NCBI GenBank assembly: GCA_019054805.1
Contig: JAHQIY010000014.1
Span: 1,426,001 to 1,490,000 of the forward strand
Direction: 5' to 3'
Length of the DNA: 64,000 bases
Source: Brachionus manjavacas
Taxonomy: Eukaryota > Rotifera > Eurotatoria > Ploima > Brachionidae
Both the position numbers and the translations under genes were made by a program. How positions within the stretch are numbered: the first letter of the stretch is position 1; the number at the start of each line of letters is the position of its first letter. Of the stretch, positions 7,125 to 55,114 are shown in pieces. The notes under the pieces were generated by a model, which ran no database searches, was not told the DNA's origin, and saw only the letters and a program-made list of their open reading frames with translations.

Positions 7125-10100
7125 ATGAGTAACGATGATCAAAGTGTGGAAATTGAAATTTTACAGGAATCGATCCCTTTTTTTCCCATGGTTGATAATC
7201 CGATCACATCAACCATTAGTGGTGATAGAGGATGGAATCTTGTGCGTAGAGAGATTAGCAGACAATTCAGTAATAATCAGGCGAACAAAAATTGGAAAAT
7301 TTTGGTAAACAAATCGATGCAGAAATTTTTCGGTGTTGATTGGGATTGTGAAACTCAATTGAATCTGCCAGTAAATACCAACAAAAACCTAGTGGAATGG
7401 AATCAACGAGAATTTAAAATCTTAAAAAACAAAAATTTCCTTGGAGGCAAACTAAAATTTGAGGCTTTCAAAGATTACATCGAAAATATTGATGAAGAAT
7501 TATTAGATAATGCAGATAATTACGCCTATTACAGAAAAACAAGAACAGTTTTGCCGAAGAGCAGAGAGGAAAAATTAACTAATTTATTGGGACGCAGTCT
7601 AAGCAGTCCATTCAAAGTAAAATTTAAGAAATAAATTAAATTTTTTGGTAGATTTTTGCTTAGAAATTAAATTCTGATGAGTCAAATAATGTAAAATTGC
7701 TTGAATTAATTTTTTTTAATTGATTTTTTAAAGAAAGAATCAAAAAGTGAGACCGAATTTGATAAAATTCGAATAGAAAGATTAGAGGAAGAAGACAGAC
7801 ATGTAGAATACAACATTGAAGGTCCATGTGATGCTTTTACGCATGCATGCACTAAAAGGGTTCCTGGAATGGGATTTTTTGGTCGTCTATTTGACTACAC
7901 TTTTGATCCGAGCAAAGACTCGGACCTTTATTCACAATTAATAAATACAACTATAAATCACAGGGCTTATTTTACTTATTGGTAATAATAGTTTGATTTT
8001 TTTGGTTTTTTTTTTGAATTTTTAATTTCTCTAAAAGGATTACTTTTGTCCAAATTTTAATATTTTTTGGATCCTTGATAGCATATGGAATTGCACCCAT
8101 TGGCTTCACTTCGACTAAAAAAGAAAATTTGGTCGCAACAATAATATTAGAAAAGCAATTAATGAATTATGAAGTGAAAGATAACTTTTGGATTGGTCCA
8201 TCAGCCATTGATCTGGTTCATCTTGGTGCAAAATATGCTCCATGTATGAGAAACGATTCGGAGATTTACAAGAGAATTGAGCAAGATCGGTTAATTGAAA
8301 AAGAAACTGCTTGCTGTGTCCGGTACGATCGAGGAGGATGTGTTCAAACATTTGAGAGTAAATGTCTAGTAAAAATTCTATTTTTTTTTTTTATTTTTTT
8401 ATTAAAACTTTAAATAAGAATATGTCATCGAGATGGGATAAATGGAAGAATGGAAGTGAAATTTCGATCAAAAGAAAGCGAACTTCTGGTAGTGTTTGTG
8501 GTCAAGATCCTGAGTAAGATTTCTAATTTTATTCTATTTAAACAGGTAAAAAATTTACCGTCATATCAATGATTAAAAAATTTTAAAAAAGAAATTGATT
8601 TTCATTTATAAAGGTTAAACATGGTCCGGGGTAGGGCCTGGTTTAGAGATTCAAGTATGTTAGGTTCTTTGAAGTACAGTACAAAAGAATAGAACAAAGT
8701 TTAAAATTAGTTCTGTAAATGTAGTATTGTGCAGCATTCAAAGTTGCATCAACTGTAAAAGGCTGCAAATAGTGTGCAAAATCTCTGCAAAATGCACTAC
8801 GCTTGATTAAATTGAAATTTAATTTCTGCTAAACTCTGAAAATTTATCAGACTCAGATATTTGATGCAACTTTTAATCTTGCATTATGTTGCATTTACAG
8901 AACTAAATTTAAACCTTTAGAAAAAAACTTTTTTAAATTTTTTTCTTTTCTTTTAATCATTTTGTACTGAATTTCACAAAACCAGTATGTTGTAGATTAG
9001 AGAACTAAGATTAAAATATGTTTAAATTAAAATTAATAATCAAATTTTTAATAAATTAAAATCTTTAATTTAATTATCCTTATGACGATTTTGTTTATTA
9101 ATTGAAAATTTAGTTTTTAATAAGACGGATTAATATGCATCCTTTTAAAAATAGTAAATAGCCAAAAAAAAAAAGATAACTAATTATTTTTGATGTTTTT
9201 TAAGTTTTTGTAGTGATCCGGATTCCAAAAATTGGATAGATGACATTACTCAGTGGCCGGTAAATTAATTTTGGCAAAAAAAGAAAAACAGATTTGAATT
9301 TTTTTATGATTGAAGATTTGCTCACAGCCTTCTTTAATAATTAATTCTTCAGTAGAAAAAAATCAACACATGTTTTGTGAAGTGATAGGTCGTCCGTGTT
9401 GTATTGGACTGCAAGGCCAATGTGTCATAACTACTCTAGAGCATTGTGACTTTATGAGAGGATATTTTCATGAGGAAGCTAGTTTGTGTTCCCAAGTTGA
9501 TTGCATGCAAGATGTGTGTGGTATGATGGACTTTCTTGATCCAAAAAGTCCCGACCAGGTCTATCGACTTTTCACATCAATATTCATTCATGCTGGGTAA
9601 TTAATAAACAATTAATAAAAATAAAAAATTTTAAATTTTCATTTATAAAGAATAATTCAGCTACTGATTTCGATATTTTTTCAATTTTTTATTTTGAGAG
9701 ATCTAGAAAATCTAGCTGGATGTCTTCGCATCGGTATAATTTATTCAGGCTCTGGAATACTAGGCAATCTAGCATCTGCTATTTTTTTGCCCTATCAAGC
9801 AGAGGTACATTTCAATTGATTGACTTTTTTTATTTCTTTTCTTAATTATTTTTTTTTAAATTAAAGGCAGGACCTGCTGCAAGTCATTTCGGCATTTTGG
9901 CATGCTCATTCATTGAGCTTTTTCAAATATGGTACTTTTTTTTCCAAAGTATTTATTCCAGATTTTAAATTAAAGTTTCAATTTAAGGAAGTTATATGAG
10001 AATCCATGGATTCCATTTTCTAAACTCATCTTGTTTATGATTTTGCTATTTATCATTGGTTTGTTGCCAATGATTGACAATTTTGCCAACATATTCGGCT

Positions 10101-10348
10101 TCTTTTCAGGTCTTATTCTTGGAACAATATTTTTTCCAAATGTTACCCGAAGAAAGTCGAAAATATATAAAAGAGTATTTTTGTTTTTTATTTCGATAGC
10201 CATTTTGGTTTTTTATATTGGTGTAATGGCTTCTCTTTTTTACTTCAAGCCTATAGCAAATTGTGAATGGTGTAAGTTCATTAGTTGTCCATTAGGTTCT
10301 AAATTTTGTCTTGATAGCGATTTTAATATAATAAGAATTTTTCAATAA
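7125..10348 (+). CDS. Inactive rhomboid protein iRhom, copy A (9 exons)
   Basis: iRhoms are ER/Golgi polytopic pseudoproteases that escort ADAM17/TACE and control EGFR-ligand trafficking in animals. Exons 7125-7616, 7734-7981, 8038-8368, 8419-8513, 9214-9259, 9316-9596, 9651-9804, 9867-9931 and 9988-10348 join in phase to give 690 residues. The cytosolic part contains the iRhom N-terminal block (KFFGVDWD). TM1 follows ([19 protein letters not shown]), then the Cys-rich luminal iRhom homology domain ([12 protein letters not shown], [29 protein letters not shown]), then the rhomboid core. The protease serine motif GxSG is replaced by GPAASH, and the TM6 position that is His in rhomboids is Asn (DNFANIFGF), so catalysis is not expected. 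The cytosolic region is shorter than in vertebrates. The 3' half is nearly identical to copy B, introns included. Confidence 0.93.
8666..8979. mobile_element. hAT-like MITE in iRhom A intron 4, with 8-bp target duplication
   Basis: A non-coding element of about 315 bp in the long intron of iRhom A. The left terminus GGTTCTTTGAAGTACAGTAC pairs with the right terminus (reverse complement GGTTTTGTGAAATTCAGTAC). A second, inner pair of arms follows: TTAGTTCTGTAAATG near 8706 and its complement near 8905. The element is flanked by agtatgtt on both sides. The paralogous intron of copy B has an uninterrupted agtatgttgtagat site at about 20816, which is the empty site. An 8-bp duplication with short inverted termini fits a hAT-type MITE. 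Confidence 0.7.
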
Positions 10349-19295: not shown

Positions 19296-22200
19296 ATGAA
19301 TTACGAGGACCAAGAGATAGAGATTGAAATTGAAAGAGAAAAAGAGAATGCACTTCCCTTTCCATCTGTTGTTGCACCAATCACTGTCACAAATCTAGAC
19401 CAAGACAAACCATTGCAAGAGGCTGAGAACAAAAATGTTGAAAGATGGAAAAGTTTGGTTCAAGCTTCGAAAATATTTTTTGGAATCGACACTAAAACTG
19501 AGCCTGAATCAAATTCGCCAATTTACACAAACAAAACGTTGGTTAATTGGAACGAGAGAACTCTAAAAGTCCTAAAGAATAAGAGAATATTCGGCGGAAA
19601 AATAAAAGAATCTGCACTGAAGCAATTCATAGAGGAAATCGATGAAAATTTGCTAGATGAAGGTGATTCGTATAGATATTTTAAGATTACAAATAGAGTT
19701 TTGCCAAAAAGGCGTCAAGATAATTTGACAAGTTTTTTAGGAAATAAATTAGGATTTGTTTTTCAGGTAATTTCTTAATAACAAATTTAATAAGATTAAA
19801 TGTGACGAAATTAATAATTAAGAAACCAAAAGATGTTCACCAAAATATCCAAGTAAAGTTAAAAATTAAAGAAATTCCTTTACTAGATTCTAAATTTATA
19901 AGGCTGAAAGATTTGTTCCTGTTGATGAGGACTTGCCTGATTTTAGAAAAGACGAACAAACAGAAGCAGAAGGCAACGTTGAAGGACCATGGGATGCTTT
20001 TACAAATGCTTGTGCAAACAGAAGGATTCCTGGTATGGGATTTTTTGGTCGTCTATTTGACTACACTTTTGATCCGAGCAAAGACTCGGACCTTTATTCA
20101 CAATTAATAAATACAACTATAAATCACAGGGCTTATTTTACTTATTGGTAATAATACTTTGATTTTTTTGAATTTTTTTTGATTTTTAATATTTTCTAAA
20201 AGGGTTACTTTTGTGCAAATTTTAATTTTTTTTGGGTCCTTAATAGCATATGGACTTGCACCCATTGGCTTTACTTCTACTTTTAAAGAAAAATATGTGA
20301 CTACAATTAATTTAGAAAAACAATTATTGAATTATGAAGTGAAAGAAAACTTTTGGATTGGTCCGTCTGCCAAAGATCTGGTTCATCTGGGTGCAAAATA
20401 CGCCCCATGTATGAGAAACGATTCGGATATTTACAAGAGAATTGAGCAAGATCGATTGATTGAAAGAGAAACTGCTTGTTGTATAAGAAATGATAAGGGT
20501 GGATGTGTACAGACAACACAAGAAAAATGCTCAGTATTTCTACTTTAAAACTTCAATAAACTTTTTAGCTAATTTTTACTGTTTGTAGAAATTGTTTTCA
20601 AAATGGGATAAATGGAAGAATGGAAGTGAAATTTCGATCAAAAGAAAGCGAACTTCTGGTAGTGTTTGTGGTCAAGATCCTGAGTAAGATTTGTATTATA
20701 ATTTTATTTCATTTTAAACAGGTAAAATATTAAGCCGTCATTTAAATAAAAAAATTTGATTTTCATTTATAAAGATTAAACGGGGTCGAGGGCAGAGCCC
20801 TGGTTTAGAGATTCGAGTATGTTGTAGATTAGAGAACTAAAATTAAAATTAATAATTAAATTTTTAAAAAATTAAAATCTTTAATTTAATTATCCTTATG
20901 AAGATTTTGTTTATTTGTTGACAATTTAGTTATTAATAAGACGGATTAATATGCATCCTTTTAAAACAAACTCTGAAGATTTATCAGACTCAGATATTTG
21001 ATGCAACTTTTAATCTTGCATTATGTTGCATTTACAGAACTAAATTTAAACCTTTAGAAAAAAACTTATTCAATTTTTTTAAATTTTTTTCTTTTCTTTT
21101 TATCATTTTGTACTGAATTTCACAAAACCAGTATGTTGTAGATTAGAGAACTAAGATTAAAATATGTTTAAATTAAAATTAATAATTAAATTTTTAATAA
21201 ATTAAAATCTTTAATTTAATTATCCTTATGACGATTTTGTTTATTAATTGACAATTTAGTTTTTAATAAGACGGATTAATATGCATCCTTTTAAAAATAG
21301 AAAAAAGCCAAAAAAAAGATAACTAATTATTTTTGATGTTTTTTAAGTTTTTGTAGCGATCCGGATTCCAAAAATTGGATAGATGACATTACTCAGTGGC
21401 CGGTAAATTAATTTTGGCAAAAAAAGAAAAAAAGATTTGAATTTTTTTATGCCTGAAGATTTGCTCACAGCCTTCTTTGATAATAAATTCTTCAGTAGAA
21501 AAAAATCAACACATGTTTTGTGAAGTGATAGGTCGTCCGTGTTGCATTGGACTGCAAGGCCAATGTGTCATAACTACTCTAGAGCATTGTGACTTTATGA
21601 GAGGATATTTTCATGAGGAAGCCAGTTTGTGTTCCCAAGTTGATTGCATGCAAGATGTGTGTGGTATGATGGACTTTCTTGATCCAAAAAGTCCCGACCA
21701 GGTCTATCGACTTTTCACATCAATATTCATTCATGCTGGGTAATTAATAAACAATTAATAAAAATAAAAAATTTTAAATTTTCATTTATAAAGAATAATT
21801 CAGCTACTGATTTCGATATTTTTTCAATTTTTTATTTTGAGAGATCTAGAAAATCTAGCTGGATGTCTTCGCATCGGTATAATTTATTCAGGCTCTGGAA
21901 TACTAGGAAATCTAGCATCTGCTATTTTTTTGCCCTATCAAGCAGAGGTACATTTGAATTGATTGACTTTTTTTATTTCTTTTCTTAATTATTTTTTTTT
22001 AAATTAAAGGCAGGACCTGCTGCAAGTCATTTCGGCATTTTGGCATGCTCATTCATTGAGCTTTTTCAAATATGGTACTTTTTTTCCAAAGTATTTATTC
22101 CAGATTTTAAATTAAAGTTTCAATTTAAGGAAGTTATATGAGAATCCATGGATTCCATTTTCTAAACTCATCTTGTTTATGATTTTGCTATTTATCATTG

Positions 22201-22490
22201 GTTTGTTGCCAATGATTGACAATTTTGCCAACATATTCGGCTTCATTTCAGGTCTTATTCTTGGAACAATATTTTTTCCAAATGTAACTCTTAATGGAAA
22301 AATAAAACTAAAAAGAGTGTTTATTATTAGCTTATCAATTTTTGGCTTAATTATCTATGTAGGTTCACTAGTGAGTCTGTTTTACCTTAAGCCTTTAAAC
22401 AATTGTGAATGGTGCAAATTTATCAGTTGTCCTTTAGGACGAGAATTTTGTCTTGAAATGGATTTTAATGTAATAAGAGTAAATCAGTAA
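19296..22490 (+). CDS. Inactive rhomboid protein iRhom, copy B (10 exons)
   Basis: Paralogue of the gene at 7125. Exons 19296-19766, 19823-19852, 19903-20147, 20203-20533, 20589-20683, 21357-21402, 21459-21739, 21794-21947, then two exons to 22490, give a continuous 692-residue frame. It has one extra 30-bp exon compared with copy A. The N-terminal region ([13 protein letters not shown] and following), the TM1-proximal loop ([12 protein letters not shown]) and the last about 70 residues differ from copy A. Exons 21357 to the first part of the last exon, with their introns, are almost identical to it. The same catalytic replacements are present (GPAASH; Asn at the TM6 His position). It faces thymidylate synthase tail-to-tail 204 bp away. 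Both copies look intact and probably expressed. Confidence 0.92.
20968..21137. mobile_element. Right half of the hAT-like MITE, in iRhom B intron
   Basis: This segment matches only the right part of the MITE in iRhom A (from aaactctgaa onward to the terminus ending ttcacaaaacc). It lacks the left terminus. It is preceded by a copy of the intron sequence that in copy A lies downstream of the MITE, and is followed by a second copy of that same sequence. The arrangement marks a recombination junction rather than an independent insertion. Confidence 0.75.
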
Positions 22491-22694: not shown

Positions 22695-23655
<961 letters not shown>

Positions 23656-28368: not shown

Positions 28369-31300
28369 ATGGACCATAAAAATAGAGTAAGATTAAACTG
28401 TCTGCTTCAATTAATATTTTAATCTGAAAAAAATTAAGTTGGATGTATCTACATCAGGTTTTCAGACAGCTAGTGGTAAAACTTTGCATTACAAAAGAGA
28501 TAAAGTGATCGAGATTGAGGATAAAACAAATGATATGGATAGTTGTCAATCAATAGTGGCTACATCAGGTTTTCAGACAGCTAGTGGTAAAACTTTGCAT
28601 TACAAAAGAGATAAAGTGATCGAGATTGAGGATAAAACAAATGATATGGATAGTTGTCAATCAATAGTGGCTACATCAGGTTTTCAGACAGCTAGTGGTA
28701 AAACGCTGTTGTATAATAAAGAAAAAATGATAGAATTAGAAATGGATGACAAAAAAAATAACGAAATTAAATCAAATCTGGCACAGTCAGGTTTTCAGAC
28801 AGCTGGTGGTAAAACTTTACCCTACAATAAAGATAGTATTATCAAATTTGAGAACGAAGACAAAAAGGAAAATACAAACAAAGACATTGAACCATCAGGA
28901 TTCGAGACTGCTAGCGGAAAGTCACTTTTATTCAACAAAAATAAAATAATAAAAGTTCAAAGCGATGATGAAACTACAGATTTTTTATCAGTAAATTTAG
29001 AAAGAGATTTAGAAACGAGTATATCAGATGATTCGAAAGAAAATTTTAAACCCGCTTTTGGTTTAAAACCAACTGGTAACAGAATGTTGGATGGAAAAAA
29101 ATTTAAAAGGCCACAATTGATTGATAAGACTAAGATGAGTAAATATTTGAATTCATCATCTAATGAATCCAATAAGACAGACATTGATGAAAGTATTATT
29201 GAGTCAGAAAGTTTATCAGAGTCACAATTATCTATCGAGAATATGAATTATCATATGTTCAAACCTATTGGGAATATCCCAATACCTTATTGTGTAATAA
29301 AAGATTTGCATTTTGTTCAAAATGGACAATTAAATTTAAGCATAGTTAAGCCAACTTTTGAATTTAAACAATCTGAAGCATTTTATCCAAAAGAACCCCG
29401 TGGTTCATTGATGTCGTGGCACCAAAAACGTTTAATAGCGGTGGAAACGCTTGAAAAACGGCTTGAATCCAAGAAAAAAGTTAATTTACGGCCCAGTGAT
29501 AGATCAAAACCAGGATTCTTTTTAGGACAAAAAAATTTGGCAAAACAATCAAAAGAAATTCTAAAAATATCAAATCTTAAGATTGACTTGGTAATTTTGA
29601 AATTAAAAAAAAAAAGGCGTCTGTCTAGTAAACAGAAGATCCCGGGTTCGATTCCCGGCGGTGCCTTTAATTTTTGTAAAAAAATTGTTTATTTTTAAAT
29701 CAAAGACAGACCCTGGTGAGTCGGTTAAAAAAGTTGACCTAAACCACTTAGACGAGTTTAAGTTTAATGTAACTGATTTTGGTGACATTTATGAAATATT
29801 CAAAAAAAATGGATTTGTTCAAACACCAGATGATGGCTGTCTAATTCCAGATGAGAACTTACAAATTGGATTGAATGAATTATATTCGTAATTAATTTAA
29901 TAAAAAAAAAAAAATAAAATATTTAATTTTCTCGTAGCTGTTTTTTGGATTCAAATGGAGTGGATAGCAGATTAGTCAATCAAGACTGGTTTAAAAATCA
30001 CTTAAAATGGATATTATGGAAACTTAAATCGTATGATGAAAAATTAATGAAATATTTTGAAAATTTGTAATTTTTTTAATTAAATATTTTTTAGAATATT
30101 TTATTTTCTTAATTTTTTTTTAGAAATTTAACACCTTTTAATATAATGAATCAAATTAAATATAGATATGACATTGAAATTGGACAAGCGAAACGATCTT
30201 CGATCAAAAAAATAATCGAAAAAGATGATACATCATTGAACAAGATTTTAATTTTATTTTTGAGTAAAATATTTAAATCATCTAGTTCATTAACAGTATT
30301 TTTTCAGAATTTTTATTTTTTTAATTTAACTTTTGTTTAAAACTAGTTTGTGGAATTATGTGATGGATGGTACCCGATTAAAGCTCAGTTTGATGCACAT
30401 TTAAGTGACTATCTGAAACGTGGTCGAATAAAGTTAGGAGACAAATTGGTGATCTTTAGTCCTGAATTAATCGGATGTCCGAAAGACGGCTGTTCGCCTC
30501 TCGAAGCACCGGAAGAAATGTACTTAAAGCTTAGCGTCAATTCAACCCGTAAAGCTAAATATTTTACCAAACTTGGATTTTTAAAACCTCAGAGACCATT
30601 GATTGTTTCCATAAACTCAATCAAAGCTAATTCAGTCGTGGGGGCTTTAGATGTTTTAATAGAAAGAATATATCCAATAATTGTAAGCTAATTTAGGATT
30701 CTAAATTATCAGTGAAACTTTTTTTAGTTTATGGAGAAAAAATTGGATGGCTCAAAGGTTTATAGGAACCAAAAGCAAGAAGATATGCTTCTTTATTCTA
30801 AAATGATTGATCTTGAAGAATCTGAATCTTTGGTAAATAAAGAGAATAGATCAGATAATTTTGAGAAAAAAAACTCTCAAATTAGAAATGTCAGTCAAAT
30901 TTTAAAGATTAGAATTCGCGATTTTAATTCCACAGACCAAGCTTGTATTTACTAAAAAAAATAATAAAGAAATTTAATTTATTAAATTCAATTCAAGCAT
31001 GTTTAGTAACGTTTTGGCAAAATGCAAATGATGTCTACGATAAAATTAGCGAAGGCGAACGTCTTTTAGTGTTTAATCTGACAGCTAGTAGTCACAAGTA
31101 GGCTCATTTAATACTCAAATCTCATCAATTATATTAGATCAATAAAGTATTAAAGAAATGTGATGCAAGATGGTTCAAATATATCCCTGGGAACGAACAG
31201 AATGACTTTTTACAAAAAATTAAACTCGATCAATTTGATTAAAAGCTCTAGACAGGTAATTATTTTGAGACATGTAAATTAATTTTTTTTTGTTGACTAG

Positions 31301-49141: not shown

Positions 49142-50206
49142 ATGTTAATAGATCTTATAGTGTATGTGGTTAGTGTGTCTCTATTTTGCTATTTGGCGAA
49201 CCGGTTCTATTTCAGCGGGGCAAGATACAAATCGGAAAAGAAGCTGGACGGAAAAGTGGTCGTAGTGACTGGTTCAGACAGTGGTATTGGATTTGAGACA
49301 GCTTTGGACTTTGCCAAACGTGGGGCCCGAGTAATACTCGCGTGCCGCGACACAATTAGAGCTGAAAAAGCGGTAGGCACCATAATTCAGCAGACAGGCA
49401 ACAAACAAGTCGATTACGAATTCATTGACTTGGCAGATTTGGACACGGTGAGAAGTTTTGTCAAAAGTTTAAAACAAAAAATTGATAGATTAGATTTGCT
49501 CGTCAACAATGCCGGTGTCATGGCGTGTCCTTCGGAATGGCGAACTAAACAAGGCTATGAAATGCAATTTGGTGTAAACTACCTAGGACACTTTTTGCTT
49601 ACCAATCTCCTGCTTGACTTGATAAAAAAAACACCAAAAAGTCGCATCATTAGCGTTTCATCATGTCTTCACTACTGTAATCATTTTTTTTTAACTTTTT
49701 TTTTTAGTAAATTTTTGAAAATTAGATGGAAAAATAGAATGGGATTGCTTGGAAAAAGGTAAAGAAATCACACTAATTAATGGCTATTCCCAGAGCAAAT
49801 TAGCTGTGGTAATGTTCACCAAAGAATTAGCAAGAAGGCTGGATGGCACAAGTGTGACCGCAGTTTGTTTGCATCCGGGAGCAGTTAGAACAGGAGTATT
49901 ACTAAATTTTATATTAATTAATAATTAGTTATTCTTTTTATTAAGATTATTCGCTATACCGGTGAAAGCATGTGCCGGTTGTTTCCTCTTATAATAAGGG
50001 TATTTTATGTTTGCTATATGATTGTCACAAAAAGCACCATTGAGGGTTCTATGACTACAATTTATTGTGCTCTTGATGACGAGGTGCCCAAATACAATGG
50101 ATGCTATTTTAGTGACTGTGCTTTGAAATTGCCATCCAAAGCGGTTTTCAATGATCAGGATGTAAAGCGTCTGTGGGATTTGAGCGCCAAAATGACTGAT
50201 TTATAA
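49142..50206 (+). CDS. Retinol-dehydrogenase-like SDR, copy 1 (3 exons)
   Basis: A classical short-chain dehydrogenase of the RDH11-14/WWOX-like group, likely NADP-dependent and membrane-anchored. Exons 49142-49676, 49726-49895 and 49946-50206 give 321 residues. An N-terminal hydrophobic segment (LIDLIVYVVSVSLFCYL) precedes the Rossmann fold. Cofactor motif [18 protein letters not shown] (the Arg favours NADP(H)), D-x-D-L region [14 protein letters not shown], catalytic Ser in SVSSCLHY, and YSQSK for Tyr/Lys. C-terminal block [18 protein letters not shown] is shared by all three copies. The ATG at 49142 is preferred over an upstream TTG-containing extension. Substrate is not predictable; retinal or a lipid aldehyde is likely from the family. 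Confidence 0.9.
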
Positions 50207-54061: not shown

Positions 54062-55114
54062 TTACAAGCCAACTAACTTTTTGCTTATTTTCCAAAGTTT
54101 TTTACTATTTTGTTCATCAAATGTTTGCTTTGAAGGCTCTTTTGGACGACAATCACTAAAATAGCACCCATTAAGCTTAGGTACTTGGTCATCTATTGCA
54201 CAGTAAACAATAGACATAGCTCCTTCATAAGCGCTCTTTGTGAATATCATATAAATTAAATAAAAGATTTTTACAATAAGAGGAAATAATCTACAATAAC
54301 TTTCTCCAGTATTTCTAATTATCTGAAAATAAATAATTTAATAAAAAAAAATGATAAATAAATGTATTAACCTAACCTTTGTTCTTACAATTCCTGGGTG
54401 GACTGACACTACTGTAACACCGGTGTTATGAAGCTGTTTGGCAAGCTCTTTTGTAAACATTACCAGCGCAAGTTTACTTTTTGGATAGCCTTTAAGTTCA
54501 TCATTGTCTAGTTCAATTTTTGCCACTTAAATTAAATATTTAAAGTTAATTTGGGAAAATTAAAAAAAAAAAAGCAGACAATAATGTACACATGATGAAA
54601 CATTGATGATGCGACTTTTGGGTGTTTTTTTTATCAAATCAAGTAAGAGATTAGTTAATAAAAAATGTCCAAGGTAATTAACACCAAATTGCATGTCAAA
54701 GCCTTGCTTTGTTTTCCAACTATCAGGACAACCCATAACACCTGCGTTATTGACCAATATATCAAGTTGATCAATTTTAGATTGAATATTGCTTGAAAAA
54801 GCTTTAATTGAATCTAAATCAGACAAATCCATGAGCTCATAATCGACTTGTTTGTTGCCAGATTTTTGTTTAATTTTTCGAACAGCTTTTTCGGCTTTTA
54901 AGGAACTTCTGCATGCCAGTATAACTCGGGCTCCGCGTGCAGCAAAGTTCAAAGCTGTCTCAAATCCGATACCACTGTCAGAGCCAGTCACTATGGCTAC
55001 TTTTCCATTCAATTTTTTGTCCGATTTATATCGAACGCCCCTGAAATAGAGCCTATTTGCAAAGAAACAACATATAATTATACAAATAAGGTAAGTAGTT
55101 GTTTCTAAAATCAT
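54062..55114 (-). CDS. Retinol-dehydrogenase-like SDR, copy 3 (3 exons)
   Basis: Exons 54580-55114, 54377-54525 and 54062-54322 give 314 residues. It begins with a hydrophobic anchor ([19 protein letters not shown]), followed by cofactor motif TGSDSGIG and ACRSS in place of ACRD. Then come [20 protein letters not shown], the catalytic Ser in INVSSCVHY and Tyr/Lys as GYPKSK. The C-terminal block is [18 protein letters not shown]. Exon boundaries coincide with those of copy 1, to which it is closest, so the pair arose by duplication with inversion. It starts divergently from SPCS1, 330 bp away. Confidence 0.9.

Follow-up and report, generated by a model that had tools for sequence, protein, structure and literature searches.

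Tracts of interlocus (ectopic) gene conversion between tandem duplicates are usually homologous at both edges. Hartlerode et al. (2016; PMC5104497) cloned from mammalian cells a second kind of product, in which repair starts by homology and is finished by a join with the second end. All nine breakpoints cloned in that report carry microhomology or added bases, and one described clone has a single added base at its non-homologous breakpoint (PMC5104497). The pair of iRhom genes examined here, from the rotifer Brachionus manjavacas, shares with interlocus gene conversion several sharp tracts of near identity that cross the introns of diverged paralogs, but the main tract, in copy B, is non-homologous at its left edge. 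With the cloned products this tract shares a probable homologous start, an end at a non-homologous place, and a join with an added base; those products arose in a reporter cut by I-SceI, the sister chromatid serving as donor, whereas here the event is natural, the partners are tandem paralogs, and a MITE supplies the non-homologous stretch (PMC5104497). Judged from titles and the beginnings of abstracts, no natural paralog case of such an event was recognised in the literature searched, and the word iRhom is absent among the matches listed for iRhom duplication or rotifers.

The window, that is, the whole stretch of 64,000 nucleotides that was analysed, lies within a 2.44-Mb contig of an assembly of 114 Mb in 61 contigs; it contains no N and has a G+C content of 27%. 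It holds two intact gene copies in tandem, A and B (Table 1), for which the splice sites, and copy B as a whole, are gene models built here from genomic sequence alone. A preliminary description had named the pair iRhom, and the database matches of copy A bear this out: the best PDB match is 'Inactive rhomboid protein 1' (E 1.4e-142, covering A residues 205-660), the four PDB sequences matched at E up to 0.001 are all entries for iRhom1 or iRhom2, and Pfam Rhomboid is matched at residues 484-621 (4.7e-27). In the PDB comparison, the relationship extends over both the rhomboid and the extracellular parts. The two proteins are equal at 517 of 678 aligned residues. No third iRhom paralog that might serve as an outgroup occurs in the 114-Mb assembly, where A and B account for all 14 protein matches (E up to 0.001).

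Three other features of the window were seen in passing. An open reading frame on the opposite strand, at 22695-23441 (-), is presumably thymidylate synthase-like; its end and that of iRhom copy B lie some 200 bp apart. The open reading frame 28415-29698 contains tandem units of the form SGFQTASGKTL... (repeat 28449-28866; self-match at an offset of 111 bp with 83% DNA identity), which we take to resemble the BRC repeats of BRCA2. An inverted gene pair at 49182-50119 and 54149-55074, with 69% DNA identity, presumably encodes short-chain dehydrogenase-like proteins.

Table 1. Positions of the two iRhom gene copies, the MITE, and the segments of copy B discussed in the text (window coordinates).
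Feature	Position	Strand	Basis
iRhom gene copy A (donor)	7125-10348	+	Nine exons, 690 aa, spliced ORF without internal stops
Complete 321-bp MITE, intron 4 of A	8663-8983	.	Long terminal inverted repeats; flanking TSDs 8654-8662 and 8984-8992
iRhom gene copy B (acceptor)	19296-22490	+	Nine exons, 682 aa, spliced ORF without internal stops
122-bp island, same sequence as A 7869-7990	B 20035-20156	+	In exon 2, with 9 bases of intron 2
90-bp island, same sequence as A 8433-8522	B 20603-20692	+	In exon 4, with 9 bases of intron 4
B's own MITE-free intron, first copy of the repeated 150 bp	20816-20966	+	Begins at the empty target site AGTATGTTG
Non-homologous junction CCTTTTAAAA / C / AAACTCTG	20966-20968	.	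Comparison with A and MITE copies
Right half of A's MITE in B	20968-21129	+	Equals A 8831-8983 except 2 substitutions and 9 bp (TTATTCAAT) missing in A
Second copy of the repeated stretch, A-derived	21130-21296	+	2 differences from A
A-derived tract in B	20968-22285 (= A 8831-10143)	+	20 events in 1313 bp, permutation test, Ks 0.035

Certain patches apart, A and B are old duplicates: outside the shared patches 148.5 of 229.8 silent sites differ, or 0.65 raw differences per site. In exon 1, 207 of 465 aligned bases differ; exon 3 is intermediate, with a Ks of 0.67; and in exon 9 beyond the tract 74 of 206 bases differ (64% identity, Ks 1.7). Within the tract, which by the gene models runs from the end of intron 4 through exons 5-8 and introns 5-8 to base 156 of exon 9, the difference events comprise only 17 substitutions and 3 indels, and Ks was calculated over 233 codons. 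Introns 6 and 8 have zero substitutions, intron 8 having one 1-bp indel. Divergence far below that of the flanks, at introns and silent sites alike, is the pattern of interlocus gene conversion, and the tract is the largest exchanged patch of the pair. Selective conservation was rejected as its cause, given introns 6 and 8 without substitutions and the nearly identical silent sites.

The mosaic also stands out when the differences are redistributed at random. The longest identical run is 284 bases, and shuffling the differences 2000 times gave at most 72; the best segment scores 1098, as against at most 83 after shuffling. The segment that scores 1098 also includes bases from A 8637, directly ahead of the MITE site. 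Uniform divergence along the pair, which the preliminary description had asked to be checked, is thus rejected by the exon and intron counts, the shuffles, and Ks (0.035 in the tract vs 0.67 in exon 3 and 1.7 in the rest of exon 9). That description had placed a nearly base-for-base match at about 20968-22284 in B and 8831 to about 10142 in A, coordinates that proved correct within about one base. Its word 'recent' for the transfer holds only relative to the pair (Ks 0.035 vs 0.65 raw); 17 substitutions have since accumulated in 1313 bases.

The MITE in intron 4 of A makes the history of the tract legible. It is flanked by AGTATGTTA at 8654 and AGTATGTTG at 8984, a 9-bp TSD with one mismatch. 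Related copies mostly measure 356-364 bp and have the ends GGTTTTGTGAA...TTCACAAAACC; the copy in A is about 40 bp shorter than most of them. This near-palindromic family has about a thousand recognisable ends genome-wide: with up to 2 mismatches allowed, its end pattern gave 499 and 504 matches, as against 0 and 0 for the reversed control. At 31 distinct other loci (34 listed minus three places fetched twice), 25 have TSDs of 8-10 bp when one mismatch is allowed, which is lenient for A+T-rich DNA, and 15 of these TSDs are exact; five of the remaining loci have no TSD by the rule of the script (L003/L012, L014, L015, L026, L028), and one has no left end. Terminal inverted repeats and TSDs of 8-10 bp characterise MULE-type MITEs, and the long terminal inverted repeats, the mostly 8-10 bp TSDs, the length of about 360 bp, and the hundreds of copies are all like those of such elements. 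By TSD length and long terminal inverted repeats, we take the family to be of the MULE type.

In B, the occurrence of AGTATGTTG at 20816 marks an empty MITE site. The intron ahead of this site differs from A at 19 of 124 positions. The intron sequence that follows it, which is B's own, aligns with A 8984-9150 (BLAST; 151 aligned bases, 7 mismatches, one gap), so that B 20966 corresponds to A 9150. The next base that would be homologous is A 9151, yet B from 20968 equals A from 8831, 8 bp beyond the middle of the MITE; the step back, given as about 320 bp in the preliminary description, measures 320 bp on A. Between the two stands a C where A has T; among 12 same-orientation MITE copies (an orientation group picked by hand), this base is T in 4, A in 8, and C in none. 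The bases at the place of TTATTCAAT, missing from A, are recognisable in all 12 of the same-orientation copies aligned. After the half MITE, AGTATGTTG recurs in B at 21130 and the repeated stretch begins again.

The non-homologous left join, inside a MITE that is complete only in A, is thus well supported by the comparison, as is the duplication of about 150 bp on either side of half a MITE; both agree with what had been described. The left edge is where the tract departs from a conversion tract with two homologous edges. One homologous edge together with one that carries an added base or microhomology is the signature of non-canonical, end-joining termination. B's own base after 20966 has been lost, and a short microhomology at the left join is conceivable.

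The structure also argues for the direction of transfer. The half MITE in B came from A, because A holds an undisturbed MITE with its TSD and B has the empty site; a direction from A to B is well supported on these grounds. The donor is unchanged, A retaining the MITE, both TSDs, and an intact gene, as expected of a non-reciprocal exchange. Transfer from B to A was rejected on account of the full MITE with TSD kept in A. An independent insertion of a half MITE into B was likewise rejected, since the flank continues as A sequence; the half MITE of B is 98% identical to that of A and no more than 91% identical to the other copies scored. Simple tandem duplication inside B as the sole cause, already doubted in the preliminary description, fails because the first copy of the repeat continues B's own intron at the empty site; the first and second copies differ by 5 mismatches and one gap, and the second differs from A at only 2 positions.

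A more elaborate duplication would give the same final structure. In it, a tandem duplication of about 12 kb joins 20966 to 8831 and creates a B/A hybrid gene, and recombination with B then deletes the spare 12 kb. Common types of event would presumably suffice; two of them are needed, however, and there is no leftover third copy among the 14 protein matches, each of which lies in A or B. We consider this history very unlikely.

The structure was read from assembled sequence, and an assembly chimera was also weighed. Five sites at which A and B differ can be polarised, from other MITE copies or from B's first copy of the repeat (9041 and 9106 from the latter only). A has the newer state at four of them (the 9-bp loss at 8928, and 8955, 9041, and 9106) and B at one (8841). 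Because A carries the newer state at four of the five, the tract of B is not a copy of the assembled sequence of A, which counts against a chimera. Among the 20 differences of the tract from A are MITE bases missing in A but present in other copies. A chimera would also have had to join non-homologous sequence and, 1.3 kb further on, return without a seam, in a window free of N within a contig of 2.44 Mb. It is the least probable of the explanations we considered, and a highly improbable one.

The right edge of the tract is of another kind. Identity between A and B ends after TTTTTTCCAAATGT and one further base, in exon 9, at B 22285; the earlier placement of this edge inside the last exon was accurate. 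The 40 bases before the edge are identical, and beyond it the divergent remainder of exon 9 begins at once. In the protein of A the tract extends to about residue 622, adjoining the end of the Pfam Rhomboid match. The right edge lies at the end of exon-9 homology, as expected of an edge that depends on homology.

With somewhat better than even confidence, we favour ectopic homologous repair in which B was patched from A and homology served at just one of the two ends. A double-strand break would have arisen in intron 4 of B near 20966, and the right-hand end of B, processed back into the gene, would have invaded A within exons that are still similar. Synthesis would have run leftward on A, from about 10143 to 8831, passing A 9150, where annealing to the left end of B was possible, and entering the right half of the MITE of A, which is missing from B. 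The new strand would then have come off close to the centre of the MITE and been end-joined to B on the left, with one base added. This would leave a half MITE between two copies of about 150 bp, within an intron and without harm to the reading frame. We infer the break, the order of the steps, and the direction of copying from this product.

The preliminary description had read the same structure as a backward template jump of about 320 bp. Spelled out in the manner of MMBIR, this would be replication of B to 20966, a 320 bp backward jump onto the MITE of A, rightward copying to 10143, and a homologous return. Such template switching would give an identical product, directional from A to B and with the 320 bp step that is measured on A. 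It needs two switches, the first of them without recognisable microhomology and with an added base, whereas one invasion and one join suffice for one-sided repair. The A to B direction and the non-homologous left edge of that reading stand; the jump itself does not follow from them, since leftward copying, overshoot, and end joining give the same sequence. We regard template switching as unlikely, if worth keeping in view. Three points weigh against one-sided repair in turn. About 150 bp of homology usable for annealing would have been passed over; the copying direction and a single origin of both edges are not readable from the sequence; and the divergence of the tract is uneven. The events within the tract crowd to the left, the best split falling at 9402 with 15 events up to it and 5 after it (p 0.058), which is no more than a hint that the right part was converted once again at a later date.

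The first copy of the repeat is nearer to A than the preceding intron (p 0.008) and less near than the tract (p 0.005) in Fisher tests that counted it as 8 differences in 150, the joined A sequence having retained the first target-site copy (7 in 151 by BLAST). Because of this intermediate position, an older exchange within B 20816-20966 is suggested. In a further alternative, a two-step history, the full MITE and its downstream sequence would have been converted into one allele of B, and a MITE-free and a MITE-bearing allele of B (or sister) would later have been joined end to end. The 16 identical bases before the MITE site (A 8637-8652, B 20799-20814) are usable as a homologous left edge, and the 5 mismatches and gap between the two repeat copies in B are what diverged alleles might show. 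Two independent events are nonetheless required within the same 200 bp, and we consider this history quite unlikely. Apart from the chimera, all of these alternatives would yield the same sequence as one-sided repair of B from A but would need more events.

Two further stretches of identity, absent from the preliminary description, lie to the left of the main tract, and both extend from an exon 9 bases into the next intron. At 122 and 90 bp they exceed the longest run, 36, in 2000 shuffles of the left part, and they are separate conversion patches, for which either direction is possible. With zero differences, they may be younger than the main tract. As the large tract and the two islands show, A and B have exchanged sequence several times.

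It is also conceivable, if rather doubtful, that a MITE by which two paralogs differ is a barrier, diverting ordinary gene conversion towards end-joined patches. Copying would enter the palindrome, detach near its apex, and be unable to anneal. The MITE of A folds into a long imperfect hairpin (z-score -6.7, DNA-parameter fold of 8663-8985), and the join, 8 bp off the centre of the element, falls between the paired arms (8752-8861) of an RNA-parameter fold that counted only pairs more than 90 apart; in the DNA-parameter fold some of the inner bases are paired as well. About one third of the MITE lies between the arms, and the position of the join near the predicted hairpin apex is suggestive only. 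If the barrier reading is true, half-elements with flanking repeats would be footprints of failed conversion.

The event itself is of a known kind, and the locus offers a clear natural example of it, intronic and without visible harm to the gene. Owing to the MITE with its TSD, the case is unusually legible, in that the direction, both edges, and the mode of ending can be read from the sequence. For the two iRhom genes, patchwork conversion keeps the rhomboid domains alike, and the N-terminal parts and tails diverge.
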